Source: Garicola koreensis | GTDB taxonomy: Bacteria > Actinomycetota > Actinomycetes > Actinomycetales > Micrococcaceae | Length of the DNA stretch: 64,000 nucleotides | NCBI RefSeq assembly: GCF_014195445.1 | Contig: NZ_JACIBT010000001.1 | Location: 992,001 to 1,056,000 of the forward strand | Reading direction: 5' to 3' | Part shown: positions 39,198 through 47,683 of the stretch, piece after piece | Position numbering within the stretch: the stretch's first letter is position 1 | Layout: each line of letters opens with the position of its first letter | The notes under the pieces: generated by a model | What the model saw: the letters and a program-made list of their open reading frames with translations, nothing else | Told to the model about the DNA's origin: nothing | The model's database searches: none | Made by a program: the position numbers and the translations under genes

Positions 39198-39667
39198 GCA
39201 CCGCCTTCCGATTCGTCGTCCCAGCCCGGTGAGAACAGCAGTACGGCCAGGGCCCCGCTGATCAGCACCACGCTTCCGGCCAGACCGGCCCAGAGGCCGA
39301 CGCCGAGGGTATGGACATCACCGTCTGCGCCCAGTCTGGACAGTGCCGGGGCCGCAGCCTGTGCCGGGTCGAGCATCGCGACCACGGCAGCAGCCAGGGC
39401 GATCAGTCCGCCGCCCAGCAGCACTGCCGCCAGGGCTCCCCGCACCCAGCGGCGGGCCATGGTGATCAGCACCCCGCCGATGACGCCGATCACCCCGATG
39501 GTGCGCACCAGCGTGGTCATCTCCGCACCGGAGAGCGAGACGGCGGACTGACCGCCGCCGACGCTGACCCAGGTGAGCACCGAGGAGATCAGCAGCAGCA
39601 CCGCCCCGGCCTGGAGGACCAGGATGGTGTTGCGGCGCTGGAAGAAGTGGGCGAGGTGGCCGATCAT
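39194..39667 (-). CDS. Trp-operon-associated membrane protein (TIGR02234-like), copy 1
   Basis: A 157-residue four-helix membrane protein with the same plan as its neighbour: LVLQAGAVLLLISSVLTWVSVGG, a middle helix pair, and LGVGLWAGLAGSVVLISGALAVLLF. The ATG at 39667 overlaps the trpE stop as ATGA. The open frame continues far upstream only as trpE antiframe noise. Two adjacent copies of this family probably reflect a tandem duplication. Confidence 0.75.
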   Translation of the reverse strand: MIGHLAHFFQRRNTILVLQAGAVLLLISSVLTWVSVGGGQSAVSLSGAEMTTLVRTIGVIGVIGGVLITMARRWVRGALAAVLLGGGLIALAAAVVAMLDPAQAAAPALSRLGADGDVHTLGVGLWAGLAGSVVLISGALAVLLFSPGWDDESEGGA

Positions 39668-41217
39668 GTCAGCCTCCCTGCCGCCAGGACTGCCCGCAGC
39701 GGGGCGGCGGCCTTGTTGACGGTCTCCAGGCGCTCGGCGTCCTCGTCCGAGTCGGCGACGATCCCACCGCCGGACTGCACATACGCTCGCCCGCCCGCCA
39801 GCACGGCCGAGCGGATGGCGATGGCTGCGTCCATGCGCCCGGAGAGGTCGAAGTAGCCGACCACTCCCCCGTAGACGCCGCGGCCGGTGGGTTCCCACTG
39901 GTCCAGCAGCTGCAGGGCGCGCGGCTTCGGCGCCCCGGAGAGTGTTCCGGCGGGAAAGGTCCCCGCCAGCGCGTCGAAGGAGGAGGCGCCCGCCGCCAGC
40001 TTCCCCTGGACGTGACTGGTCATGTGCATCACGTGGCTGAACTTCTCCACCGCCATGAACCGGGTGACCTCCACGGAGCCGGGCTCGCAGACTTTGGCGA
40101 GGTCGTTGCGCGCTAAGTCCACCAGCATGAGGTGTTCGGCGCGCTCCTTTTCGTCGGCCAGCAGCTCGGCGGCCAGTTCGTCGTCCTGCACCGGATCTCC
40201 CCCGCGGGGCCGGGTGCCGGCGATGGGGTGGGTGATCACCCGCTGCTCGGCGTCCACCGTCACCAGCGCCTCCGGTGAGGCGCCGACCACCTGGTAGGGC
40301 TCTCCGTCGGGGGTCTGGAAGTGCATCAGGTACATGTAGGGGCTGGGGTTGAGCAGCCGCATCATCCGGTAGACCGCCAGCGCGTCCACACTGGTGGCGA
40401 CCTCGAACCGGCGCGAGATCACGATCTGGAAGACCTCACCGTCGACGATGGCCTGTTTGGCCCGCGTCAGCGTCGCCAGGTACTGCTGCTCGTCCCAGGT
40501 GTGCTCGACCTTGGTCGCCAGATCGGCCTCGACCAGCTCCCCCCAGTCCTGTGGGGCGGCTGAGACTTCCGCGGCCAATGGCTCATCCAGTGTGGCACGC
40601 ATGGCGTCCAGGCGGGCGAGCGCGTCGTCATAGGCTGCGGCCGCACCGGTGGCCCGGCCGTCGCGGTTGATCGCATTGGCGATCAGGGTGACCGTCCCGT
40701 CACGATTGTCGTGCACCGCTAAGTCTGAGATCAGGTTCATGGCCAGCTGGGGCAGCCCGACGTCGTCGACGGGCCCGCCGGGCAGCCGCTCCCACTGCCG
40801 GACCACGTCCCACCCGGCGTAGCCGACCAGCCCGGAGGACAGGTGCGGCAGCTGCCGGGTCAGGGCCCGGCCGTGATCGCCGGTGAGGAACTGAAGTGTC
40901 TGCTGCAGGACCTCGGCGGCGGTTCCGGACTCGGGGGCGCCGGCCGGAGGGTCCCCGATCCAGTGGGCGCGGCCGTCCTTCTCCGACAGGGTGGCCGCCG
41001 AGTTGACGCCGATGAAGCTGTGCCGGTCCCAGGCGGCCCCGGGGGCCGCCGACTCCATCAGGAAGGTGCCCGGCTCCCCCGCGGCCAGGGCGCGATAGAT
41101 GCTCAGCGGTGTGTGGCTGTCGGCCAGCACCTGCACCGAGACCGGAATCACCCGGTGATCGGCCGCCAGGTCGAGGAACTCCTCCCGGGTGGGTGAGACG
41201 ACGCCGAATTTATGCAT
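39664..41217 (-). CDS. trpE: Anthranilate synthase component I
   Basis: Converts chorismate plus glutamine-derived ammonia to anthranilate. It has 517 residues from the ATG at 41217. The N-terminal region has [14 protein letters not shown], containing the LLES-type tryptophan feedback element. The catalytic domain contains [37 protein letters not shown] and [15 protein letters not shown]. The start overlaps the hisI stop by 8 nt. The glutaminase partner TrpG is not in the window. Confidence 0.95.
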
Positions 41218-41545
41218 CCCCGACCTCCAGCTCACGGTCGGTGAAGCAGGTGGGCGTTCCGGTGTGGCAGGCGGGTCCGGTCTGATCGACCTGCAGCAGC
41301 ACTGTGTCGCCGTCGCAGTCGAGGCTGAGGCTGCGCACCTGCTGGATGTTGCCTGAGCTCTCACCCTTGACCCACAGTCTTCCGCGCGAGCGTGACCAGT
41401 AGGTGGCCCGCCGCGAGTTCAGGGTGGCCTCCAACGCCTCGGCGTTCATCCAGGCCAGCATGAGCACGTCCCCGGAGTCGGCCTCCTGGGCGATCACCGG
41501 TACCAGTCCGTCGTCGTTGTAGCTGACCTGCTCCAGTGTGCTCAT
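41210..41545 (-). CDS. hisI: Phosphoribosyl-AMP cyclohydrolase
   Basis: Third step of histidine synthesis, opening the purine ring of PR-AMP. It has 111 residues. [32 protein letters not shown], the metal-binding [15 protein letters not shown] and [10 protein letters not shown] are the family blocks. It is a separate HisI, not fused to HisE (43214-43477). The ATG overlaps the hisF stop. Confidence 0.95.
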
Positions 41546-42306
41546 CGGACGCTGTACCCCGCCTGCCGGATCTCGTCCTTGACGCGGGCGATCATGTCCA
41601 CCGGTCCGAAGTGGAAGAGGCTGGCCGCCAGCACGGCGTCGGCCCCGGCGGCGATCGCCGGCGGGAAGTGGCTGGGGTCCCCGGCTCCGCCGGAGGCGAT
41701 CAGCGGCACCCGGGTCACCGCCCGGGCTGCGGCGATCAGCTCAAGGTCGAAGCCGGCTTCGGTGCCGTCGGCGTCGATGGAGTTGAGCAGGATCTCGCCG
41801 ACCCCGCGCTCTGCGGCGTCGACGCACCACGCCAGCGCGTCGATGCCGGTGGAGGTGCGCCCGCCGTGGGTGGTGACCTCGAAGCCGGATGCGACGTCCG
41901 CAGACCGTGCCACATCGGCGCTGAGCACCAGCACCTGGGAGCCGAACCGGGCGACGATCTCGTTGATCACCTCGGGCCGGGACACTGCTGCGGTGTTGAT
42001 GGAGGCCTTATCGGCGCCGGATCGCAGCAGGGTTGCCACATCTTCGGCGGTGCGGACTCCGCCGCCGACGGTCAGCGGGATGAACACCTCCTCAGCGGTG
42101 CGCGAGACCATGTCATAGGTGGTCTCCCGGTCGCTGGAGGAGGCGGTGACGTCTAGGAAGGTCAGCTCATCGGCACCGGCCTGGTCATAGCGTGCGGCCA
42201 GCTCCACCGGGTCGCCGGCGTCGCGCAGGTTCTCGAAGTTGACCCCCTTGACCACCCGGCCGCTGTCGACGTCGAGGCAGGGGATCACACGTACGGCTAG
42301 GCTCAT
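41542..42306 (-). CDS. hisF: Imidazole glycerol phosphate synthase, cyclase subunit
   Basis: Uses ammonia from HisH to form imidazole glycerol phosphate and AICAR. It is a 254-residue TIM barrel. [20 protein letters not shown] carries the catalytic Asp near residue 11, and [34 protein letters not shown] (second catalytic Asp) and IASGGAGD follow. ATG at 42306 chosen; the extra open frame upstream is noise. HisH is not encoded here. Confidence 0.96.
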
Positions 42307-42308
42307 GA

Positions 42309-43199
42309 TCAGATCCTGCACGCGTGGATCGTGGAGACCAGGATGGCGCGCGCACCCAGGTCGTAGAGTTCGTCCATCAGCTGGTTCGTGCGCTTGGCCG
42401 GCACCATGGAGCGCACTGCCACCCACCGCTCATCGGCCAGCGGGGAGATGGTGGGCGATTCCAGTCCGGGGGTCAGCGCCATGGCTTCGTCCAGGTTCTC
42501 CCGGCGGATGTCGTAGTCCATCATCACGTACTGCCGGGCCACCAGCACCCCGCGCAGCCGGCGGATCAGCCGCTGGGTGTCGCGCTCGATCGCTTGGGCG
42601 TCGTCGTGGGGCTTGCCGTTGCCGGCGATCAGGATGGCCTCCGACTCCATGATCGGGGCCCCGAAGGTCTCCATGCCGGCGGCCTTGAGCGTGTTGCCGG
42701 TCTCGACCACATCAGCGATGGCATCGGCGACGCCCAGGCGCACCGAGGATTCCACGGCGCCGTCGAGGTGGACGACCTCCACGTCGTCGATCCCCTGGGT
42801 TGCGAACCAGTTGGAGAGCAGTCCGTCATAGGTGGTGGCCACGCGTCGGCCGGCCAGCTCCTCGGCCGCCGTGAAGCTGCCCCGCGGGCCGGCGAGCCGG
42901 AAGGTGGAGCGGCCGAATCCCAGCCCCATGATCTCCTGGGCACCGGTCTCCACTGAGGCGTCCTGAAACAGGTCGCGGCCGGTCAGGCCCAGGTGCAGGA
43001 TCCCCGAGCCCACATAGACGGCGACGTCGCGGGGGCGCAGGTAGAAGAACTCGACTCCATTGACCTCGTCGACCAGGACCAGCTCGTTGCGGTCGCGGCG
43101 CTGCAGGTATCCGGCCTCGGAGAGCATATCCATCGCCGATTCGGAGAGCGATCCCTTATTCGGCACGGCGACCCGAAGCGTAGTGCGTGGTTCAGACAT
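42309..43199 (-). CDS. hisG: ATP phosphoribosyltransferase (long form)
   Basis: First committed step of histidine synthesis, joining ATP and PRPP. It has 296 residues, the long HisG form with a C-terminal ACT-like domain that senses histidine, so no HisZ is needed. [34 protein letters not shown] and the PRPP loop [19 protein letters not shown] are present. The ATG at 43199 starts 14 nt after hisE. Confidence 0.95.
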
Positions 43200-43213
43200 G
43201 GGGTGGGTGTTCC

Positions 43214-43477
43214 TCACAGGTAGCGGTAGATGTCCTCGGGTGTGAGCCCCTTGGCGAGCATCATCACCTGCAGGTGGTAGATCAGCTGGGAGATCTCCTC
43301 GGCCGCCTCCTCGCGGCTTTCGTACTCCGCGGCCATCCACACTTCGGCGGCCTCCTCGACGATCTTCTTGCCGATCTGATGGGTGCCGGCGTCCACGGCG
43401 ACCACGGTCGAGGATCCGGCAGGGCGTTCGGCGATCTTCTGGCTCAGTTCGGCGAAGAGCTCATCGAAAGTTTTCAC
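43214..43477 (-). CDS. hisE: Phosphoribosyl-ATP pyrophosphatase
   Basis: Second step of histidine synthesis, hydrolysing PR-ATP to PR-AMP. It is an 87-residue all-helical MazG-like enzyme. [38 protein letters not shown] contains the acidic metal-binding cluster. It sits between ribH and hisG in the continuous minus-strand array. Confidence 0.95.
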
Positions 43478-43494: not shown

Positions 43495-43995
43495 TTAAGC
43501 GTCCAGCTTCGCGATTTCCACCGCTGCGGACACACCGGCGTGCGCGGCTTCGAACCCCTTGTCCTCGGTGGAGGAGGCCAGCCCCGCCCGGTCCAGCGCC
43601 TGCTCCTCGGTGTCGCAGGTCAGCAGGCCGAAGCCCACGGGGGTGCCGGTGTCGATCGCCAGCCGGCTCAGGCCCTCAGTGGCGGCCGAGCAGACGTACT
43701 CAAAATGCGGAGTCCCGCCGCGGATCACAACACCCAGGGCGACGACGACGTCGTACTGCCGCGCCGCGTGAGCGGTGATCACCGGCAGCTCGAAGCTGCC
43801 CGGGGCCCGCAGCAGCGTGTAGTCGGTGAGGCCGACTGCCTCCAGGAACCGACCGGCCCCGGCGATGAGTCCCCCCATCACCGTGGTGTGCCACCGGGAG
43901 GCGACCACGGCCACCCGCAGGCCCAGGTCTTGGGCCGCCGCAGTCAGGTCCTTCAGCTCTGCCTCGCTGATCTGCACAGTGCCGGTGCCGCTCAT
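43495..43995 (-). CDS. ribH: 6,7-dimethyl-8-ribityllumazine synthase
   Basis: Penultimate step of riboflavin synthesis, condensing ribityl-aminouracil with 3,4-dihydroxy-2-butanone 4-phosphate. It has 166 residues. [30 protein letters not shown] and the catalytic His segment [13 protein letters not shown] are visible. The start overlaps the stop of the fused RibE-RibB-RibA gene by ATGA. Confidence 0.95.
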
Positions 43996-46019
43996 GGGTG
44001 GGCTGCTCCTTCGGTGGTGATTTCGCCCTGCTCCTGCAGCTGCAGGTGATCGAGCATATGGGCCATTCTGTCTCGCTTGGTGCGCAGGTAGCGCGCGTTG
44101 TCCCGGTGCACCACTCCGTTGGAGGGCACCTGCTCCACGGTGAGGCCCGTCGCGGCCAGCGCCTGGACCTTGGCCGGGTTGTTGGTCAGCAGCCGCAGCC
44201 GGCTCAGCCCGGCACTGTGCAGGATCGCCGCCGCGCCGGTGAAGTCGCGCAGCTCGGCGGCCAGGCCCAGCATCTCGTTGGCCTCCACCGTGTCGGCGCC
44301 GTCCTCCTGCAGCTTGTAGGCGCGCAGCTTATTGGCCAGCCCGATGCCGCGGCCCTCATGGCCGCGCAGGTAGAGCAGGTGTCCGCCTTCGCGCTCGATG
44401 GTCTCCAGCGCGGAGGTCAGCTGGGTGCCGCAGTCGCACCGGTGGGAGCCCAGCACGTCTCCGGTGAGGCACTCCGAATGCATCCGCACCAGGGGGTTGT
44501 CGGTCTCTGCCTGCTGCGCGGAGAGCAGAATGTGCTCGTGGCCGCTGAGATGTTCGGTCCACACCTGGGCGGTGAACACCCCGACGTCGGTGGGCAGGGT
44601 CACCTGGGGCCCGCCGGTGACCAGTTTGGCGGCCTCATCGTGGGGCTCCTCCCAGGAGGTCAGGTAGGACTCGCGCACGGCATCGGGGCTGGCGGTGCCG
44701 CCGCGGTACTCGATCAGGTCGGCGATGCTGATCAGCGCCAGCTCGTGGGCGTCGGCGAACTCCCGCAGCCCGGGCAGGCGCATCATGGTGCCGTCGTCGT
44801 GGACCAGCTCGCCGATCACCCCAACCTCCGGGTATCCGGCCAGCCGGCACAGGTCCACTGCGGCCTCGGTGTGCCCGTCGCGGCCCAGCACCCCCTCGGC
44901 GTCGGCGATCAGCGGGAATATGTGCCCGGGCCGGGTCAGCTGCTGCGGGCCGGTGCCGGGATCGGCCAGCGCCCGCGCGGTGATGGACCGGTCCTCGGCG
45001 CTGATGCCGGTGGAGGTGACCGCCGCGGCGTCGCAGCTGATGGTATAGGCGGTCCCCTTGGGGTCCTGGTTGCTGCGCGTCATCGGCGGCAGGCCCAGGT
45101 GCGCCGCCCGCTCAGCGCTCATTGGTGTGCACAGCACCCCCGAGGTGTAGCGGATGGTCATCGCCATCAGCTCTTGGCTCGCCACTGCCGCGGGGAAGAT
45201 CAGGTCGCCCTCGTTCTCCCGGTCAGCATCATCGACGACGACGACGGGCCGGCCCTGGGCGAGCTGGTTCAGGGCCACCTCAATGGGGTCGAGAATCGGC
45301 GCCGGGGTGTTCGGTGGGGTCACGGCGAGCAGGGCAGCGTCGTCGTCGTGCTCGATGACCTGTGTGCTCTGGGTGCTCTGTGTGCTCTGGGTGCTCTGGG
45401 TGCTCTGGGTGCTCTGGGCATCGAAGTTCAGCATCCGGCTGACGTATTTGGCCAGCACGTCGACTTCGATGTTGGCACCGTCGCCAAGTTGCTTGCCCCC
45501 CAGGGTGGTCTCGGCCAGCGTGGTGGGGATCAGCCCGACCTCGAACCAGGCCGCGCCGGCGTCCTCGCCGACCTCGGTGATGGTCAGGGAGACACCGTCG
45601 ACGGCGATGGAGCCCTTCTCTGCGATGAACTTGGCCACCTGGGCATCCACGCTGAAGCGGTGCCGGCCGTCGTTGTGGTCGCGCTCGACCAGTGTGGCCA
45701 TGCCGTCCACGTGGCCCTGGACCACATGGCCGTCCAGCCGCGCACCGGCGGGCAGGCAGCGCTCCAGGTTCAGCCGGTCACCGGCGGTCAGCTCGCCGAG
45801 GGTGGTGCGCTTCAGGGTCTCCTCGATCACCTCGACGGTGATCTGCTCGCCGGCGATCTCCACCGCGGAGACGCAGACCCCGTTGACGGCGATGGATCCG
45901 CCCAGCTCGAGGTCGGCGGTGTGGCCAGCGGCGTCGAAGGTGAGCCGCTCGACTCCCTTGACCGGGTCGGCGGTGCGCTCGAGGCAGCGACCGGTGCCGG
46001 TGATGATTCCGGTGAACAT
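43992..46019 (-). CDS. Trifunctional riboflavin synthase / DHBP synthase / GTP cyclohydrolase II (RibE-RibB-RibA fusion)
   Basis: A 675-residue single ORF carrying three riboflavin enzymes. Residues 1-200 are riboflavin synthase alpha with two lumazine-binding halves ([43 protein letters not shown]). Residues 201-219 are a linker of six Gln-Ser-Thr units. Residues about 244-450 are DHBP synthase ([41 protein letters not shown]). Residues about 455-675 are GTP cyclohydrolase II with zinc ligands in [20 protein letters not shown] and catalytic [10 protein letters not shown]. RibBA fusions are standard; addition of RibE to the same chain is unusual. ATG at 46019, one nt after the ribD stop. Confidence 0.92.
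45364..45417. repeat. Six 9-nt tandem repeats encoding the (QST)6 linker
   Basis: Unit GTGCTCTG[G/T] on the plus strand, starting at 45364, 45373, 45382, 45391, 45400 and 45409. On the coding strand each unit reads Gln-Ser-Thr. It joins the riboflavin synthase and DHBP synthase domains. A nine-base unit preserves frame whatever the copy number. Confidence 0.95.
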
Positions 46020-46020
46020 A

Positions 46021-47112
46021 TCAGTGGTCTCCTTTCGGCCCGGCCGGGGCAAGGTGGATGCAGACGTCGTTGTCCAGCAGGGTGACGGGGCCGCCGTCGG
46101 CGGTGTCGAGTTCGCAGCGCAGCCCCTGGGCCAGCGTGGTGACGCCGATGTCGGCCAGGCTGGCTCGTCCGGCTCCCAGGAGCAGCGGGGCGGTGTAGAC
46201 GAAGATCTCATCGACCAGGCCCGCGGCGAAGAACGCCGAAAGCACGCTCTGGCCGCCTTCGACGAGCACGTGCCGGACCGGGTGGCCGCTGTGGCCGGTG
46301 GCCGCCAGGGTGCGCAGCGCCTGCAGCGGCTCCCGGGTGCGCAGCTGCATCCATCCCTGACCTTCGGGTCTGCCGGCAGTGAGCTGCGCTTCTGCGGGGG
46401 TGGGCCGAAGACCCATCACGCAGCGCAGCGGCTGGTGCGGACTCGGTTCGCCGTCGTCGTCGCGGGCGTTGAGGCGGGGATCGTCGACCGCCGCCGTGTT
46501 GGTGCCCACGAGGATCGCGTCCACCCGCTGCCGGATGCGGTGGGTGTGGCTGCGGGAGGCCGCTGAGGTGATCCACTGGCTGGTGCCGTCGGCCGCGGCG
46601 ATGCGGGCGTCCAGGCTCTGCGCCATGTGAACGGTGACGAAGGGTCGGCCCTGCTGCTGGGCGAGGGTCCACCGGTGGTTGAGCCGCTCGGCTTCGGCTT
46701 CCAGCACCCCAACGGTGACCTCGGCTCCGCGCTGGCGCAGCAGCTGCGCTCCCCCGCCGTTTGCAGTCGGGTCGGTGGTGGCGCAGATGATCGTGGTGAT
46801 GGCCGCTGCCTCGATGAGTTCGGTGCAGGCGGGTTGGCGGCCGGCGTGTCGGCAGGGCTCCAGCGTCGTGTAGAGCGTGGTGGAGGAAAGGTCGGTGTAC
46901 CCGGCCGCGTATGCGGCGGTGATGGCATCGCGCTCAGCGTGGAATGTTCCGGCTCCGCGGTGGTGCCCGGTGGCGATCACTGTGCCGTCGTCGTCGGTGA
47001 TGATCGCTCCGACCAGGGGGTTCGCTCCCCGGTGGCCCAGCTCTGCGGCGTCGAGGGCGGCCTGCATGAGCGGCTGGTGGCCGGTGGTGGCGCAGATGTG
47101 GGCGTTGCCCAA
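46021..47112 (-). CDS. ribD: Bifunctional diaminohydroxyphosphoribosyl-aminopyrimidine deaminase / reductase
   Basis: Second and third steps of riboflavin synthesis. It has 363 residues. The N-terminal deaminase has the zinc motif TFHAERDAI and PCRHAGRQPAC; the C-terminal reductase has VTVHMAQSLDARIAAADG, AILVGTNTAAVDDPRLNAR and HVLVEGGQSVLSAF. The start is proposed as TTG at 47112, with AAGGAG 8 nt upstream and just past the FMN riboswitch. The first ATG in frame is inside the conserved domain, and the longer open frame lies in the riboswitch. Confidence 0.9.
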   Translation of the reverse strand: MGNAHICATTGHQPLMQAALDAAELGHRGANPLVGAIITDDDGTVIATGHHRGAGTFHAERDAITAAYAAGYTDLSSTTLYTTLEPCRHAGRQPACTELIEAAAITTIICATTDPTANGGGAQLLRQRGAEVTVGVLEAEAERLNHRWTLAQQQGRPFVTVHMAQSLDARIAAADGTSQWITSAASRSHTHRIRQRVDAILVGTNTAAVDDPRLNARDDDGEPSPHQPLRCVMGLRPTPAEAQLTAGRPEGQGWMQLRTREPLQALRTLAATGHSGHPVRHVLVEGGQSVLSAFFAAGLVDEIFVYTAPLLLGAGRASLADIGVTTLAQGLRCELDTADGGPVTLLDNDVCIHLAPAGPKGDH

Positions 47113-47128
47113 TGGACAGTCTCCTTCT

Positions 47129-47249
47129 GTGCTCCTCCCATCCAGACTCTGACTGTCGGTACCGGATTTCCACCGGTTCAACCAGTGCGCTTCGCACTGG
47201 GTCGCGGACTGTCACCGCCGGTTCGGACTTTCACCGATCCCGTAAGCAC
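47129..47249 (-). ncRNA. FMN riboswitch (RFN element)
   Basis: On the minus strand the conserved core is clear: GATCGGTGAAAGTCCGAACC, GGCGGTGACAGTCCGCGACCC, a variable hairpin (CAGTGCGAAGCGCACTG), GGTTGAACCGGTGGAAATCC, GGTACCGACAGTCAGAGTC and TGGATGGGAGGAGCAC. GTGCT at the 5' end pairs with AGCAC at the 3' end as P1. It lies between the tRNA array and ribD. The ribD ribosome-binding site is only a few nt past P1 and no separate terminator is seen, so translational control is likely. Confidence 0.95.
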
Positions 47250-47271
47250 GTAGAAACTATCTTGCCACAGA

Positions 47272-47322: not shown

Positions 47323-47396
47323 AGCGGATGACGAGATTCGAACTCGCGACCCCCACCATGGCAAGGTGGTGCTCTAGCCAGCTGAGCTACATCCGC
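47323..47396 (-). tRNA. tRNA-Gly (anticodon GCC), copy 2
   Basis: 74 nt; acceptor GCGGATG/CATCCGC, anticodon loop CTTGCCA, T-loop GTTCGAATC. CCA is not encoded. Last tRNA of the array and identical to the copy at 47610-47683. Confidence 0.95.
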
Positions 47397-47415
47397 AAGA
47401 GGGTTCTACCCCTCG

Positions 47416-47487
47416 TGCGCGATACTGGGATCGAACCAGTGACCTCTTCCGTGTCAGGGAAGCGCGCTACCGCTGCGCTAATCGCGC
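47416..47487 (-). tRNA. tRNA-Val (anticodon GAC)
   Basis: 72 nt; acceptor GCGCGAT/ATCGCGC, D-arm AGCGCAGCGGTAGCGC, anticodon loop CTGACAC, T-loop GTTCGATCC. CCA is not encoded. Confidence 0.95.
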
Positions 47488-47527
47488 CTATGCATTTGTG
47501 TGCAGGCCCGGCGTCCCGGACCCAGCG

Positions 47528-47598
47528 AGGTGGGGACGGGAATCGAACCCGCGTACACGGCTTTGCAGGCCGTTGCCTCGCCATTCGGCCACCCCACC
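47528..47598 (-). tRNA. tRNA-Cys (anticodon GCA)
   Basis: 71 nt; acceptor GGTGGGG/CCCCACC, anticodon loop CTGCAAA, T-loop GTTCGATTC. CCA is not encoded. Confidence 0.95.
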
Positions 47599-47609
47599 GG
47601 GCTCCTGCG

Positions 47610-47683
47610 AGCGGATGACGAGATTCGAACTCGCGACCCCCACCATGGCAAGGTGGTGCTCTAGCCAGCTGAGCTACATCCGC
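47610..47683 (-). tRNA. tRNA-Gly (anticodon GCC), copy 1
   Basis: 74 nt; first gene of the leftward array. Identical in sequence to the tRNA at 47323-47396, including several flanking bases. Confidence 0.95.

Follow-up and report, generated by a model that had tools for sequence, protein, structure and literature searches.

A RibE-RibB-RibA fusion, probably trifunctional, in the FMN-riboswitch riboflavin operon of Nesterenkonia

The window, a stretch of 64,000 nucleotides from Garicola koreensis (contig NZ_JACIBT010000001.1), carries a riboflavin operon in the order ribD - ribEBA - ribH with an FMN riboswitch ahead of it (Table 1). The TTG listed as the start of ribD lies inside the riboswitch, indicating that the true ribD start is further downstream. 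The ATG of ribH overlaps the stop codon of the fusion gene within an ATGA tetranucleotide (43992-43995).

Table 1. Features of the riboflavin operon in the window (residue numbers refer to the fusion protein)
Feature	Coordinates	Strand	Evidence
FMN riboswitch upstream of ribD	47126..47252	-	Rfam RF00050, 92 bits (gathering 66.2)
ribD (deaminase/reductase)	46021..47181	-	TIGR00326 above cut-off
ribEBA fusion gene	43992..46019	-	675 aa; Pfam and NCBIfam matches
RibE part, residues 1-200	45420..46019	-	Pfam Lum_binding twice; aligned to solved riboflavin synthases
Linker, residues 201-241	45297..45419	-	pLDDT <50 at 212-240
Six 9-nt units coding Gln-Ser-Thr	45363..45416	-	Tandem-repeat search
RibB part, residues about 242-440	44700..45296	-	Pfam DHBP_synthase; aligned to solved DHBP synthases
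RibA part, residues about 466-660	44040..44624	-	Pfam GTP_cyclohydro2; RibB and RibA aligned to RibBA 4i14
ribH (lumazine synthase)	43495..43995	-	Pfam and TIGR00114

The central gene is a single frame of 675 codons, running from an ATG start to a TGA stop and encoding, in this order, riboflavin synthase (RibE), DHBP synthase (RibB) and GTP cyclohydrolase II (RibA). Pfam matched Lum_binding (PF00677) to two stretches of the RibE part (E 1.5e-40), DHBP_synthase (PF00926) to residues 248-438 (E 1.1e-77) and GTP_cyclohydro2 (PF00925) to residues 472-630 (E 2.6e-56). Both riboflavin synthase models (NF006767 and TIGR00187) and the ribB model TIGR00506 scored above the NCBIfam cut-off, as did the ribA model TIGR00505 (206.8 vs 205.85), and the bifunctional RibBA model NF006803 reached 515 bits, under its cut-off of 569. 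Each part could also be assigned to its family by its motifs: the RibE part has two lumazine-binding barrels and carries MFTG, GHxVxGHVD and a further 12-residue motif, the RibB part combines PF00926 with the acidic motif and GHTEAA, and the RibA part combines PF00925 with three zinc cysteines and GHEGRGIGL. The motif residues of all three parts, regarded as essential for activity, are intact and nearly all conserved among aligned relatives. The open frame with intact motifs that the first-pass annotation had claimed is thus confirmed. One match to the fusion protein was detected in the window genome (27 contigs), the sole copy found in an assembly that is 79.9% complete, so that a separate copy could be missing.

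AlphaFold2, run with a 49-sequence alignment, predicted a monomer with a mean pLDDT of 87.6, in which a low-confidence linker (below 50 at residues 212-240) lies between confidently folded parts. The C-terminal helix of RibE (residues 188-209) reaches the first repeat units in this model, and the pTM of 0.49 indicates that the mutual placement of the three parts is not predicted. Internal ribosome starts could add free RibBA beside the fusion, and several relatives have a GTG near the junction with a good Shine-Dalgarno estimate, the stronger candidates being those of L027 (-12.9 kcal/mol; codon 188, GTG) and L011 (-12.6 kcal/mol), so that a separate RibBA is possible in those species. However, the best internal candidate near the junction in the window has an estimate of -1.8 kcal/mol (ribE, -12.9; ribH, -8.8) and the candidate positions vary among species, and we regard internal initiation as a quite improbable account of this gene.

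Matches to the fusion protein were found in all 30 Nesterenkonia genomes, and in 29 of these, the window genome among them, the three parts lie in one open frame (one of the 29 loci, L029, runs off the contig end). In the thirtieth genome (G014, locus L030; a single contig, 62% complete) the gene is split into frame-broken pieces, probably because of sequencing errors. The same open frame in 29 of 30 genomes rules out the fusion as a local oddity, and a fused gene seems to be the usual condition in Nesterenkonia. Among the 80 loci kept, all 22 named Nesterenkonia loci were fused, while 56 of the 58 loci from elsewhere had RibE apart from RibBA; of the other two, L051 is open solely through Ns and L110 shows no RibE.

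Short repeats are prone to assembly error, and the look-alike L051, from a Micrococcus metagenome-assembled genome, is open only via a gap of 100 Ns, raising the concern that the joined frame in the window might itself be an artefact at the repeat. Against this, the frame is likewise open in 28 further Nesterenkonia genomes, whose readable linkers differ in sequence, so that a misassembled junction is very unlikely; we give it next to no weight. The same genomes speak against a stop or frameshift separating ribE from ribBA, which had been raised as a way in which the fusion might fail. The fusion gene is thus genuine and genus-wide, and it probably encodes a trifunctional enzyme with ordinary chemistry.

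Across the Micrococcaceae, the fusion protein found a match in 378 of 395 genomes and in 31 of 32 genera. The 17 genomes lacking a match, which include all four of genus g12, are possibly riboflavin auxotrophs. Loci were fetched from all 33 matching Rothia (g3) genomes, all 27 Kocuria (g6) genomes and, for each of the remaining 28 genera, between one and five genomes. The resulting tree had 137 rows, comprising 127 of Micrococcaceae, one g37 genome and nine named loci. All three parts were joined in 14 of the 137 rows, namely 12 from Nesterenkonia, one from Rothia (L162) and one from g9 (L212), the last being a clean 638-aa gene with an ATGA overlap with ribH. RibE and RibB were joined with RibA apart in 46 rows (31 of 33 Rothia, 14 of 27 Kocuria and the g37 genome G636), RibE stood beside a joined RibBA in 39, and all three were apart in 38.

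Several loci with the RibE-RibB fusion have features of their own. In G636 (family f6, locus L211) the RibA match is on another contig and not in the locus, and the L211 row groups with Rothia on a long branch in the 137-row tree. Two Rothia genomes, G223 (L117/L118) and G142 (L119/L120), have two riboflavin operons each, both with the RibE-RibB fusion. Between the close Rothia rows L179 (G326) and L178 (G307), the RibE-RibB frame is broken in the linker of one, reflecting either a recent split or a sequencing error.

To look beyond the family we surveyed 396 genomes at the level of the order, where G636 was the sole single-frame RibE and RibB match outside the Micrococcaceae among the matches listed. 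At E <= 1e-119, 17 of 394 genomes were matched at the level of the class and 18 of 396 at that of the phylum, and at both levels every RibE-to-RibA match outside Nesterenkonia carried stops. All 16 class and phylum loci examined (L232-L247) had a stop between RibE and RibB, and six further phylum matches starting at or near RibE, as well as G1115, carried stops in the match table. The view that ribE is normally separate from ribBA therefore held in these 16 loci as it had in 56 of the 58 loci from outside the genus.

A single-match test can miss a fusion such as that of g9, and RibE was therefore also sought in 80 genomes with long listed RibBA frames. RibE and RibBA frames of equal length were found only in G037 (g9) and in G199, the Micrococcus metagenome-assembled genome with L051 (same contig as L255). 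G199 was rejected as a further fused lineage, because its junction is filled by 100 Ns. Two other candidates with long RibBA frames, G075 and G363, were unfused. The survey is strong for close, compact fusions; others may be missed.

The history of both junctions was then followed on trees. A quick tree of the 137 rows required at least six changes at the RibE-RibB junction, seven at the RibB-RibA junction and three of the triple state, and a careful tree of 52 rows required five, seven and three, respectively; these counts are blind to gain versus loss. Left out of the 137-row tree were L003, L005-L007, L011, L013, L015, L017-L022, L024, L027-L030, L115, L126, L163, L177 and L180, along with the loci of the set of 80 except the nine named ones. 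On the 52-row tree, a single origin of the Nesterenkonia fusion and L162 was rejected (AU p = 2e-6), as was a single origin of Nesterenkonia and all the RibE-RibB rows of Rothia and Kocuria (p 3e-10). A grouping of Nesterenkonia with L212 was not rejected (p 0.065), L212 being on a long branch. Since the outgroups and the two g15 genomes that form its sister rows are split, Nesterenkonia appears to have gained its RibE-RibB fusion. These results support the view that each of the two junctions has changed repeatedly in the Micrococcaceae. One family thus has the same three neighbouring genes, coding for homologous enzymes, in four arrangements, and so offers a small-scale natural experiment on the reasons for enzyme fusion.

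In Nesterenkonia the linker between RibE and RibB begins directly after the RibE helix and is hypervariable. Measured from LAKY, it takes 18 different lengths of 32-75 aa in 28 Nesterenkonia genomes, all in frame, and its last residues before RibB mostly form a P-x-T-P-A-P-like motif (absent in L026 and L029). In the window, the tandem array spans 45360-45418 (period 9, 6.6 copies, 94% matches, score 104). The array of 9-nt Gln-Ser-Thr repeats claimed at 45364-45417 is therefore real, its six units in the assembled sequence lying one base lower than given. A minisatellite linker as a feature of the fusion holds for the window species, the only one in which (QST)6 was seen, and does not extend to the other Nesterenkonia linkers, which differ in sequence and length.

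We counted repeats in 194 junction regions (78 fused and 116 unfused) and in 388 windows of equal length from RibE and RibB. Where the genes are unfused, this region extends past the ribE stop, so that some of the repeats there are noncoding. The count excluded the near-copies L031-L052, L103, L115, L126, L163, L215, L128 and L074, together with L030, L051, L180 and regions shorter than 18 or longer than 300 nt. Strong repeats were over-represented at the junction: at a TRF score of at least 50 they were present in 14 junction regions and in one control window. At lower thresholds the excess was weaker (17 vs seven at 40; 28 vs 19 at 30; 38 vs 48 at 24). Repeats occur in fused and unfused junction regions and their units differ, indicating that (QST)6 did not cause the fusion but exemplifies a habit of the junction. 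A change of linker length by slippage is plausible, and the linker may be weakly constrained except for its frame and Pro-rich end, its length shifting as repeats are gained or lost. A predicted disordered, freely variable linker is also where a chain made whole might afterwards be cut to release RibE and RibBA as separate proteins. However, no cutting site is evident in the sequence and the Pro-rich end is kept in most of the genus, and we consider such processing improbable.

Riboflavin synthase can be held inside a lumazine-synthase cage by its C-terminal peptide, and three residues of lumazine synthase, Arg29, Leu121 and Ile125 in A. aeolicus numbering, are described as essential for that anchoring in passages of PMC13376624. 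In the window, the aligned RibH residues are Gly42, Glu130 and Leu134, which do not form this pocket, and RibE lacks a free C-terminal cage-localization signal, as it runs on into RibB. Among 140 unfused loci in which both proteins were readable, 18 had tail and pocket, five the tail only, six the pocket only and 111 neither; these loci include near-duplicates, the tail pattern is a crude expression of our own, and shared ancestry would inflate any p-value for what is a correlation following phylogeny. In the Actinomycetes group the pocket was present in none of 212 loci (near-duplicates again included), among them all 102 fused ones, of which one is the N-gap locus L051. The Actinomycetes thus all lack the pocket, yet few of them fuse these genes. 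An un-anchored RibE, with neither tail signal nor RibH pocket, is a possible permissive cause of fusion in the Actinomycetes, and the link between the loss of cage anchoring and the freeing of the RibE C-terminus for fusion is made testable.

The three riboflavin enzymes are usually separate proteins, with at most two of them joined. Bifunctional RibBA (e.g. 4i14) has the same RibB-RibA order and aligns end to end with the window protein, which differs in having a complete riboflavin synthase ahead in the same chain. If the gene were annotated as RibBA alone, the riboflavin synthase would be missed. The RibE-RibB fusion seen in Rothia and in some Kocuria has the same join site and, in mapped loci, the same operon order, whereas RibA is a separate gene there and a shared origin with Nesterenkonia is rejected on the tree. 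Heavy riboflavin synthase, a RibE trimer inside a RibH cage described for Bacillus and Aquifex in passages of PMC8414670 and PMC13376624, is built from homologous RibE and RibH and likewise holds riboflavin enzymes together; in contrast, the cage-signal end of RibE continues into RibB in the window protein, and Gly42 and Glu130 of its RibH replace Arg29 and Leu121. Riboflavin gene fusions, including triple ones, are catalogued in PMC4921024, and our search, which covered this source in part, found no published description of a RibE-RibB-RibA fusion. RibE-RibB-RibA appears to be a new fusion variant with ordinary chemistry.

We think it likely, judging from sequence and predicted structure, that this FMN-riboswitch operon (ribD-ribEBA-ribH) produces one trifunctional RibE-RibB-RibA polypeptide with the origin, tolerance, benefit and linker behaviour proposed here. 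One FMN-controlled mRNA would give RibD, the three-enzyme chain and, by coupling, RibH. The fusion may have arisen by loss of the stop or frame between neighbouring ribE and ribB, and it may have been tolerated because the RibE of Actinomycetes is un-anchored in the lumazine-synthase cage, its C-terminus being free. The chain would supply GTP cyclohydrolase II for the first step of the pathway, riboflavin synthase for the last, and the enzyme of the DHBP side branch. In the pathway RibD and a phosphatase follow RibA, and RibH acts between RibB and RibE. The joining of entry and final activities noted in the first-pass annotation therefore stands for the domains, while the order of the pathway disfavours channelling. 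Direct passage of an intermediate between the fused parts is a frequent account of pathway fusions, discussed and doubted in passages of PMC4921024; because no two of the fused activities are consecutive, channelling within the chain is unlikely, and we rate it as low as internal initiation. The benefit of the trifunctional chain would rather lie in fixed 1:1:1 synthesis and co-assembly.

If the oligomeric states are those that passages of PMC8414670 report or assume for B. subtilis, RibE would form trimers and RibBA dimers, and flexible linkers would tie the two together. It is conceivable, though unlikely, that trimeric RibE and dimeric RibBA joined by an elastic linker build a symmetry-linked assembly, as a closed particle or an open network, which would represent a second, independently evolved route to clustering riboflavin enzymes in lineages without the cage route, its geometry tuned as linker repeats are gained and lost.

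On either side of the operon in the window and on the same strand, frames resembling hisE, hisG, hisF, hisI and trpE lie close behind ribH (39664-43477) and four tRNA genes lie just upstream of the FMN riboswitch (47323-47683).
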